From a virus: a DNA stretch of 21,962 nt. The notes below the pieces were generated by a model. The model was not told where the DNA came from and searched no databases. It worked only from the letters and a program-made list of their open reading frames with translations. This document shows, piece after piece, positions 997 to 3,032 of the stretch (position 1 is the first letter of the stretch; every line of letters starts with the position of its first letter). The stretch spans positions 1 to 21,962 of IMG/VR virus record IMGVR_UViG_3300024517_000122; one strand, written 5' to 3'. Both the position numbers and the translations under genes were made by a program.

Positions 997-1224
997 TTAC
1001 TTTATTCTTTCAAGTTCACGTTCTATTTGTTCTATTGCCATAGTTCTACCAAATTTCTTACCACTGGCGAACCTTGAATCAGCAAACTTCTCAACTTCCT
1101 CTATCTTCTGACTAGTTGTTCTATAACTAGTTGATAGTAGTTGTTCAATATACTCACCATAATAACCTTTATCGGCTGCTATGGTGAGTGATTTGAACTT
1201 CTTCAACATTTCTATACTCATCAT
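997..1224 (-). CDS. Hypothetical protein, 75 residues
   Basis: A small charged protein (many Lys, Glu and Arg), predicted mostly helical, with a C-terminal amphipathic helix (IEQIERELERIK). Its ATG overlaps the stop of the upstream gene by one base (TAATG), a typical translational coupling arrangement, which supports both genes. No domain is recognised and no membrane segment or signal peptide is seen. It precedes the 541-996 gene-free stretch. An alternative start is the second codon (MSIEMLKKF). Confidence 0.6.
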   Translation of the reverse strand: MMSIEMLKKFKSLTIAADKGYYGEYIEQLLSTSYRTTSQKIEEVEKFADSRFASGKKFGRTMAIEQIERELERIK

Positions 1225-1592
1225 TATTCAGGGATATGAGTGAGTTTAGCAAGTAAGTCTTTACCATTGGTTGCTTTACCTGAAGTATGTAAGATACCTT
1301 TGGCGATAGTTTCCAGAATATCAGAACATTGGTATAAATATCCAAGTTCTTGCGTAGTTATAAGCTCCAGTCCTTCAGGTGTTGCTTTGATGTCACCAGG
1401 TAGTTCTTTGTCTATGATAATATCATCAACATCAGGATAGATTTCAGTATCAGTGAGACGTAGAATACCTCTACAATCTTCAGCTGTCAAGAATACAGTT
1501 CCACCTACTATCACATCAGTTGATTTGAATGTAGTCACTACTTGCACAGGATGTGCATGTTTCAGTTGTTTTTCATTTTTAGTCATTGCCAT
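1224..1592 (-). CDS. Hypothetical protein, 122 residues
   Basis: The protein begins MAMTKNEKQLKHAHPVQV; a second ATG two codons in (MTKNEK) is an alternative start. It appears soluble and mixed beta/alpha: beta-rich in the first 60 residues (VQVVTTF, VIVGGTVFL) and helical near the C-terminus. No family is recognised. The leader just before the start (TAAAAACTTAAA) is nearly identical to the one before the 2889 gene on the same strand, suggesting a shared leader type in this arm. It is coupled to the next gene by a one-base overlap. Upstream of it lies the roughly 850-base gene-free stretch, part of which could be its 5' leader. Confidence 0.65.
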   Translation of the reverse strand: MAMTKNEKQLKHAHPVQVVTTFKSTDVIVGGTVFLTAEDCRGILRLTDTEIYPDVDDIIIDKELPGDIKATPEGLELITTQELGYLYQCSDILETIAKGILHTSGKATNGKDLLAKLTHIPE

Positions 1593-2442
1593 TGTTTTAA
1601 GTTTTTAAATGATTTTTACAGACATATTGTTTCGTCCAGCCTCTTCAGTGTAATTGTTATAGTCTTCTGGATGACTTAAAGTATTATACCACTGACTTGA
1701 TCAAGTGTCAGTGGCATTAGTGTCGTTTATTACCGTGATTGTACTACCAATACAACCATCAGCGCCGCAGGTCTAATATCCTACCCTTGGCTATTCCATA
1801 TTAAGATGTGTATGCTCAATTTTAACGCTGCTTGGTTCAAGATATCAATCAAGTCAGGTTACCCTTAAGTAGAGCTTCTTATATTAGTATATTTGTGGAA
1901 GTCGCTAACATAGCTGTGGCAGGCTAAAGGACTTCATTGCACAAAGAGAGTTTAATTGACACTCACAAACATTAATTTCCAAGGACTCTCCTCAGAATAG
2001 GGTAAGACTCTTGCAAGGCAGCGCCCACCTGCTATCATTGCAACCATTACGGAGCTATTTTATGCAAGATTACGGGCCTTTTAGCAAGAGTCTATATTAT
2101 AACTTAAACTATCTAGTCCAGGTTCTCTACAACTGGATAGACCATGACATTGTTAATGTTACCACCTCATTGTTTGGATTACAGTAACAGGGAACTCATG
2201 CTTAGCTATTGCGTTACCCGAGGTTTTAGTTTTGATTGAAGATAGTTTAAGTATTTTATGCTATGAATACTGATTTATTGGTGTATGAGTGCAATAAACA
2301 GTTAAATTGTCTTTTATTGGGGGAAGGTTCTAAAACCCACACTCACAGCCACTTAGAGTGTCGTTAGTGACACTAAACAGTCCTTGAGAAAGAACTGTGA
2401 GGCGTGTGAGTTAGTAGAGCTTTAAAAAATATAGGCAACAGC
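1593..2442. ncRNA. Candidate large structured noncoding RNA
   Basis: About 850 bases without a plausible gene on either strand. The stretch divides into consecutive domains closed by complementary segments: 1692-1701 with 1848-1857 (10 bp); 1898-1903 with 1930-1935 (6 bp); 1946-1951 with 1985-1990 (6 bp); 2005-2014 with 2084-2093 (10 bp, extended by 2015-2019 with 2076-2080); 2102-2113 with 2241-2252 (12 bp, perfect); and a three-way junction at 2341-2411. Smaller hairpins lie inside, for example ACATT/AATGT near 2147-2159 and TCCAG/CTGGA near 2117-2136. The 12-bp and interrupted 15-bp pairings are unlikely by chance at this length; the 6-bp ones are weak alone. No tRNA or group I/II intron core was recognised. 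Flanking genes suggest minus-strand transcription, but the pairs do not fix the strand. Confidence 0.45.
2341..2411. other. Three-way-junction RNA fold
   Basis: An outer stem, ACTCACAGCC (2341-2350) with GGCGTGTGAGT (2401-2411), pairs over 10 bp with one bulged base. It encloses two hairpins: AGTGTC (2357-2362) with GACACT (2369-2374), and ACAGT (2377-2381) with ACTGT (2394-2398), the latter continued by CTT/AAG around a GAGA loop. This is the most compact and convincing fold in the gene-free stretch. It lies just past the terminator of the minus-strand 2443-2889 gene. Confidence 0.55.
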
Positions 2443-2450
2443 CTATATTT
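2424..2450 (-). terminator. Intrinsic terminator of the 2443-2889 gene
   Basis: The perfect 10-bp inverted repeat AAATATAGGC / GCCTATATTT (2427-2436 and 2441-2450) has a four-base loop and, read on the minus strand, ends in a run of six T. The stem overlaps the stop codon of the 148-residue gene, so the terminator is fused to the end of the coding region. The stem is AT-rich apart from its GGC/GCC core, so strength may be moderate. Confidence 0.75.
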
Positions 2451-2889
2451 CTTCGATAGCGATAGCTACCAATCGAACGGAACCTTCGGTTTCGCGAGCT
2501 TGTTTCCAATTGGCGATAGCCTTTGGATTATCAGCATAGCGTGCTTCAACCAATGATTCATCCACGTCAAGTGGTGATTGCTTTGCAACTTTAACTATCA
2601 CATTTACTGATTCACTCTCACCGGGACGTTGAGAGAAGATGTTTTGAACGAAGTCAAAATCTGTCATATCAGCAGTTGTGTACAAGTTACCATGAGCAGT
2701 ATGCGAAGGCTTAAGATAAGCACCTTTATCTTCAGATGTTCTGGTGACTGTTGCCTTAAACCATAGAGCACCATCGGTGTCTAAAACCCACAACGCTGGG
2801 TTCGCTCCATTAGCAATTACTAAATCTTTGTTAAAGGCTTTGGCCTGTGCAGCCGTTGCCAAACGGTTTTTAATCTCTGTTTGTGTCAT
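2443..2889 (-). CDS. Hypothetical protein, 148 residues, first gene of the minus-strand arm
   Basis: The protein begins MTQTEIKNRLATAAQAKAFN and ends in TAG, which argues against TAG being recoded in this genome. No signal peptide or membrane segment is seen. It appears as an N-terminal helix, a beta-rich centre (ALWVLDTDGALWFKATVTR) and an acidic C-terminus. No family is recognised. As the first gene leftward from the divergent intergenic region it may be expressed early and strongly, and it has its own terminator. The leader TAAAAACTTAAA upstream of its ATG matches that of the 1592 gene. Confidence 0.7.
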   Translation of the reverse strand: MTQTEIKNRLATAAQAKAFNKDLVIANGANPALWVLDTDGALWFKATVTRTSEDKGAYLKPSHTAHGNLYTTADMTDFDFVQNIFSQRPGESESVNVIVKVAKQSPLDVDESLVEARYADNPKAIANWKQARETEGSVRLVAIAIEEI

Positions 2890-2947
2890 TTCTTTAAGTT
2901 TTTATGTGAATAAAACAGTGTGGCCCAACGGGACCGAAACTCGATAC

Positions 2948-2973
2948 GGGGGTGGTGTTACTATATCACCCCC
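2948..2973. other. GC-rich hairpin in divergent intergenic region
   Basis: GGGGGTG (2948-2954) and CACCCCC (2967-2973) form a 7-bp GC stem with a 12-base loop. It lies between the diverging arms, about 60 bases upstream of the minus-strand gene start, and would be in that gene's 5' leader or its promoter region. There is no T tract on either side, so it is not a standard terminator. Confidence 0.4.
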
Positions 2974-3032
2974 ACAAATAGCCGCATAAAAATTTTATTT
3001 TGCCCTATAGTATTTTTTCTGAAAATTTTTCG

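Follow-up and report, generated by a model that had tools for sequence, protein, structure and literature searches.

The window is a 21,962-base virus fragment, and we studied a gap in it, positions 1593-2442, on both strands. In a family-level search, the major capsid protein and the large terminase match the corresponding phage families, and Crassvirales records (e.g. cr118_1 and cr114_1) share 34-41% identity with the capsid protein, bearing out the original prediction of a crAss-like phage. Left of ~3000, all genes are coded on the minus strand. The gap is flanked by two of them, E1 (2443-2889) and gene 1224-1592 (hereafter the 1592 gene; Table 1). The 122-aa protein of the 1592 gene has no Pfam or PHROG match. 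The phage is less compact elsewhere than had been stated: a second noncoding gap of 485 bases (512-996) lies upstream of gene 167-511 and shows neither significant folding (z -0.9) nor a ribozyme match.

The only listed frame in the gap at 1593-2442 is a 58-aa TTG frame on the plus strand, and the longest stop-to-stop frame on the minus strand is 35 codons. No convincing gene is found on either strand with table 11. Reading any single stop codon as sense opens nothing convincing, which rules out a recoded gene. A decayed gene is ruled out as well, the search for protein remnants giving scores at chance level only and no protein similarity. Therefore, these ~850 bases are truly noncoding, as had been proposed. 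A tRNA scan returns nothing.

E1 ends in a terminator-like hairpin (2424-2449; -11.5 kcal/mol, z -4.0 against shuffles). T-run hairpins, read from the sequences, occupy the matching place after E1 in the four crAss-like contigs with diverged E1 homologues, L045, L056, L057, and L058. Therefore, an RNA of the gap needs either read-through or a start of its own.

DNA and protein searches of phages and IMG/VR find no close relatives of the left arm, and a scan with a conserved motif of the E1 leader for nearer relatives returns mostly unrelated contigs. The leader itself (window 2890-3000, minus strand) carries a strongly conserved element, GTAACACCACCCCC, which is identical in four of five phages and has one change in L045 (coordinates in the relatives: L045 4594-4755, L056 15269-15440, L057 1584-1750, and L058 3670-3842), although the E1 proteins of its carriers are only 20-27% identical. 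The element may act as a structured leader or antitermination RNA, or belong to the divergent early promoter. Other features were observed in further contigs. L045 encodes a permuted (two-piece) tmRNA on the minus strand at 1681-1890 (RF04321, 66.3 bits, cut-off 47), also called by ARAGORN. The same contig has an Rfam tRNA match of 45 bits spread over 108 bases (2872-2979, minus strand), which is not called by ARAGORN and may contain an insertion. The terminase gene is split by a ~1-kb insertion (intron or intein) in L052 (10001-13342) and in the terminase region of L033 and L035.

Table 1 Features of the gap and its flanks.
Feature	Position	Strand	Basis or detail
Gene E1, 148 aa, first of the leftward early arm	2443..2889	-	ORF; diverged homologues at the same place in 4 other crAss-like contigs
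Intrinsic terminator-like hairpin followed by U6, overlapping the E1 stop codon	2424..2449	-	AAATATAGGC-TGTT-GCCTATATTT-TTT
Domain of two hairpins closed by a long stem (three-way junction)	2328..2420	-	-33 kcal/mol, z -4.2, 0/200 shuffles
Domain closed by a 13-bp perfect stem	2102..2252	-	Whole-domain z -1.9
Domain closed by a 10-bp perfect stem	2003..2095	-	-34 kcal/mol, z -4.1 for 2000-2098
Near-palindromic 11-bp hairpin directly upstream of the ribozyme	1687..1718	-	-16.5 kcal/mol, z -4.4 (within 1678-1730)
Promoter-like CTGACA-N17-TATAAT	1683..1711	-	11/12 match to consensus (TTGACA/TATAAT) only; not a Bacteroidota promoter type
RAGATH-1 hammerhead ribozyme (RF03152), predicted	1616..1677	-	Covariance-model match; 85% identity over 47 bases to copies in other phages; covarying helices
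P0 hairpin, AGUC/GACU	1676-1673/1664-1661	-	Hammerhead fold
Pseudoknot, 5 bp, UCCAG/CUGGA	1671-1667/1639-1635	-	P0 loop with minimal stem II loop
Stem I, 5 bp, UUACA/UGUAA	1653-1649/1620-1616	-	Hammerhead fold
Core CUGAAGAG	from 1648	-	CUGAAGA
GAAA (within ACGAAAC)	1633-1630	-	Hammerhead core
Stem III, 3 bp, ACA/UGU	1630-1628/1624-1622	-	Hammerhead fold
Predicted self-cleavage site, GUC^U, after C1621	1620..1621	-	NUH triplet position in the hammerhead fold
A-rich mRNA leader predicted to be left after the cut, 28 bases including U1620	1593..1619	-	Predicted cut to ATG at 1592
122-aa gene downstream of the gap; its mRNA would start at 1620	1224..1592	-	ORF

The RAGATH-1 hammerhead motif and its copies in other phages

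At the default cut-off, Rfam finds nothing. When the curated cut-off is replaced by an E-value threshold (matches with E<=10 listed), the minus strand at 1677-1616 matches the RAGATH-1 hammerhead ribozyme (RF03152) over the full model length, with 56.2 bits against the curated cut-off of 56.3 and an E-value of 5.3e-8 (1.4e-8 with the gap alone searched, 871 bases). This is the one recognisable motif of the gap, and it had been missed. GOLLD and ROOL, which the gap had been said to recall, give no match to their covariance models at E<=10, nor does any other large phage RNA.

The matched sequence, AAGUCAUCCAGAAGACUAUAACAAUUACACUGAAGAGGCUGGACGAAACAAUAUGUC^UGUAA, contains all needed core residues (CUGANGA, G10.1-C11.1, GAAA, A15.1-U16.1, and the GUC site). 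Stem II is a single pair and stem III is only 3 bp long; a stem III of this length is seen also in another phage copy (L099:8306-8369), which likewise scores below the cut-off. Judged by these features of sequence and structure, the element is predicted to be a RAGATH-1 hammerhead that misses the curated score by 0.1 bit. A circular RNA would be suggested by another ribozyme at the opposite end, where neither an Rfam match nor a second hammerhead core is found.

Copies were sought by pattern scans, by BLAST against annotated phages, and by RF03152 searches of whole records. RF03152 copies are present in the Crassvirales subfamily Oafivirinae, namely in cr130_1, cr131_1 (four copies), and cr272_1 (two copies), at places that are intergenic and unannotated. 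Dulem virus 42 also carries the ribozyme, as do many IMG/VR contigs of 85-213 kb; of these, G021, G025, G041, and G048 are crAss-like by terminase. A pattern scan of genome contigs returned 56 matches to the core, most of them isolated and lying in unrelated bacterial genomes. The window ribozyme is 80-85% identical to many phage copies over 46-61 bases. It is the only part of the gap with homologues (none were found for 1678-2427 in anything searched), and the phages that share it have TerL proteins just 24-33% identical, indicating that the ribozyme is under selection.

The helices are supported by covariation. Among ~26 distinct copies, the left and right strands occur in 11 combinations for P0, 10 for the pseudoknot, 19 for stem I, and 6 for stem III, and nearly all are standard pairs. 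Stem I and the core positions were fixed by sequence in this count, whereas the pairing itself guided the script's placement of P0 and the pseudoknot, so the covariation is support and not a formal test.

Among the closest relatives (records G001-G019), no convincing copy is found outside the window, so in this set the window's particular arrangement occurs once. This absence, together with the shortest possible stem III and the sub-threshold score, would fit a copy that has decayed or is only passing through, has no function at present, and lies in a gap made up mostly of spacer. However, the core residues, P0, the 5-bp pseudoknot, and the 5-bp stem I are all intact, and decay should have cost some of them. 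We regard such a copy as very unlikely.

Two arrangements of hammerheads in other phages were also observed. In cr131_1 (L217 332-1010), one of the four RAGATH-1 hammerheads lies just upstream of an annotated tRNA-Gln, which suggests release of the tRNA by the ribozyme. In a different phage (L064 12761-12933, minus strand), a RAGATH-1 and a type III hammerhead lie ~40 bases apart, and their two cuts would release a small RNA.

Strand-specific folding of the gap

Folding energies were compared with those of dinucleotide shuffles (60 for the whole gap). As minus-strand RNA, the gap has a z of about -3.8 and none of the 60 shuffles is as stable. As plus-strand RNA, it is not clearly more stable than the shuffles (z -1.0 to -1.4). 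The original prediction was read from the plus strand; folding better than that of shuffled sequence holds for the minus strand and fails for the plus strand.

Two stems had been singled out. The first, 12 bp at 2102-2113 with 2241-2252 over a 127-base loop, exists but is actually a perfect 13-bp stem (2102-2114 with 2240-2252) with a loop of 125; a perfect stem of at least 12 bp is present in only 3.2% of shuffled gaps. The second, a bulged 15-bp stem at 2005-2019 with 2076-2093, is there as 10 perfect pairs (2005-2014 with 2084-2093) plus further pairs, in a domain with a z of -4.1.

With the ribozyme and the terminator taken out, the minus strand still has a z of -3.4, which falls to -2.0 upon further removal of the 2328-2420 domain; segment 1735-1880 has a z of -0.6. 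The structure of the gap is real but uneven, concentrated in a few domains. The noncoding status and the minus-strand folding support the earlier claim that this crAss-like phage has a region of structured noncoding RNA, with the fold on the minus strand. The ~700 bases upstream of the ribozyme are a significantly folded noncoding RNA that matches no Rfam family, and one sequence gives no basis for calling a family.

These ~700 bases could function in infection as one large structured RNA of a new kind or as a series of small RNAs, with the hammerhead serving only to make the 3' end. The z of -3.4 just given, the z of about -4 of the separate domains, and the gaps of 280-1025 bases that follow the E1 gene in four relatives are consistent with such an RNA. 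However, the gaps of the relatives share no sequence with that of the window, nor with one another in pairwise comparison of five relatives, and their folds are not significantly more stable than those of shuffles (z +0.1 to -1.6). In addition, covariance models of the two best domains (2328-2420 and 2003-2095) give no further match across 633 kb of DNA from related phages, and the z of -2.0 without the 2328-2420 domain argues in the same direction. We consider this explanation unlikely.

Predicted cut position, upstream hairpins and possible transcription of the gap

For 25 copies, we measured how far the predicted cut lies from the next start codon, counting only frames of 40 codons or more. 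The distance is 19-43 bases in 10 of the 25, compared with 12% of random noncoding positions at the same loci (binomial p about 5e-4, an optimistic value as several copies come from related phages and not all are independent). In 13 of the 25 copies, more than 100 bases separate the cut from the next start codon; therefore, leader trimming is not the only use of the ribozyme. The leaders after cutting would be A-rich and alike across copies, e.g. AAACUCAAAAACAAAUAAG before the AUG in phage G022. The 28-base leader before the ATG of the 1592 gene, UGUAAAAAUCAUUUAAAAACUUAAAACA, is 57% A and fits this pattern.

Immediately upstream of the ribozyme, a hairpin of at least -14 kcal/mol in strength is present in about 11 of the 25 copies. 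For L095, L098, and two copies of L099, it is a classical terminator; the ribozyme begins within a few bases of it, too close for a promoter to fit between them, and must be reached by read-through. The hairpin at 1687-1718 has the corresponding position in the window. The hairpins of L223, L225, and L099:6625-6690 resemble terminators and have letters in common inside them (GTAGGTG...TGCATC..GACTAC in L223 and L225), a hint of another conserved RNA element.

The promoter-like sequence at 1711-1683 offers a different origin for the transcript, and this is the main rival explanation. Per strand, 0.3-2% of shuffled gaps contain an 11/12 match, and with the spacing seen here transcription would begin at about the first base of the ribozyme. 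Among the phage copies, 24% have a match of at least 9/12 at equal spacing, a mild excess over the 5% of random positions. If the promoter is real, the 1592 operon would start at ~1677, the hammerhead would be a 5'-end trimmer removing the first 57, triphosphate-bearing bases, the palindrome at 1687-1718 would be an operator, and 1720-2420 would be a separate element. The main promoters of Bacteroidota are of the TTTG/TAnnTTTG type, and no such promoter with both boxes is found. The promoter-like sequence is thus of the wrong type for the host group of Crassvirales, which infect Bacteroidota (PMC10136315), and in cultured crAss-like phages a virion RNA polymerase transcribes the early genes (PMC10136315). 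A promoter is also at odds with the copies in which a terminator directly precedes the ribozyme, and leaves the minus-strand folding of 1720-2420 unexplained. A promoter at this place is conceivable but rather improbable.

We favor, with a probability of about 55%, a reading in which the hammerhead cuts a leftward transcript in two, the upstream part being a structured noncoding RNA and the downstream part an mRNA. Minus-strand transcription of the gap would come from read-through of the terminator after 2443-2889, or would start inside the gap. Once made, the RAGATH-1-type hammerhead at the 3' end of the gap RNA (1677-1616) would fold and, we infer, cut itself between 1621 and 1620. The upstream product would be a structured noncoding RNA of up to about 800 bases that ends in the 1687-1718 hairpin and the ribozyme body. 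Its 3' end would be defined, a 2',3'-cyclic phosphate behind a stable hairpin, and the RNA may accumulate and act as such. The downstream product would be the mRNA of the 1592 gene with an A-rich, 5'-OH leader. The phage probably trims its own messenger RNA before the 1592 gene. Counting against this reading are the sub-threshold score, the short stem III, the absence of a hammerhead at this place in close relatives, and the 13 copies distant from a start codon. The earlier suggestion of a long structured leader for this gene comes close, the hammerhead lying 28 bases upstream.

More tentatively, and with considerable doubt, hammerheads may be routine sites of RNA processing in the early arms of Crassvirales and other large Bacteroidota phages; they would follow terminators or structured noncoding RNAs and precede start codons by 20-40 bases, or precede tRNAs. 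Read-through transcripts would then be cut into units with uniform short A-rich leaders, in the window with the additional release of a large lineage-specific structured RNA.

Comparison with known systems

Crassvirales are the most abundant human gut phages. Most bacterial and phage hammerhead ribozymes have no known natural function. The recurring place of the copies, 20-40 bases before start codons and behind terminators, offers a concrete candidate job, the cutting of early transcripts without host RNases. The window also illustrates how a ribozyme may account for a structured phage gap and yet escape the default Rfam cut-off, here by a tenth of a bit.

Hammerheads have been reported earlier in phages, in intergenic regions of PaP3 and Bcep176 (Perreault et al. 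2011, PMC3088659), and a pseudoknot contact of stems I and II is described there as common in hammerheads. The accessible part of that paper names no Crassvirales or Bacteroidota phage among the carriers. A 2023 review of Crassvirales mentions ribozymes only as self-splicing introns (PMC10136315), and our literature search, which covered papers outside subscription, found none on hammerheads in Crassvirales. The window holds a predicted member of a known ribozyme family, RAGATH-1, in a recurrent and apparently unreported phage context.

The PaP3 and Bcep176 hammerheads resemble that of the window in their intergenic place in tailed phages and belong to other phage lineages. Those of cr130_1, cr131_1, cr272_1, and Dulem virus 42 are of the same ribozyme family as in the window, but their neighbour genes and adjoining noncoding sequence are unrelated. 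GOLLD and ROOL are like the window gap in extending over hundreds of bases, in having several domains, and in occurring in phages, but give no match at a useful E-value. The closest known system is RAGATH-1 itself (RF03152), with which the window element shares the P0 hairpin, the pseudoknot to the stem II loop, the one-pair stem II, the core, and the GUC site, and it is predicted to work like a cis-acting processing ribozyme. It differs from RAGATH-1 in its 3-bp stem III, its score 0.1 bit under the cut-off, and its place at the end of a 700-base structured noncoding stretch.
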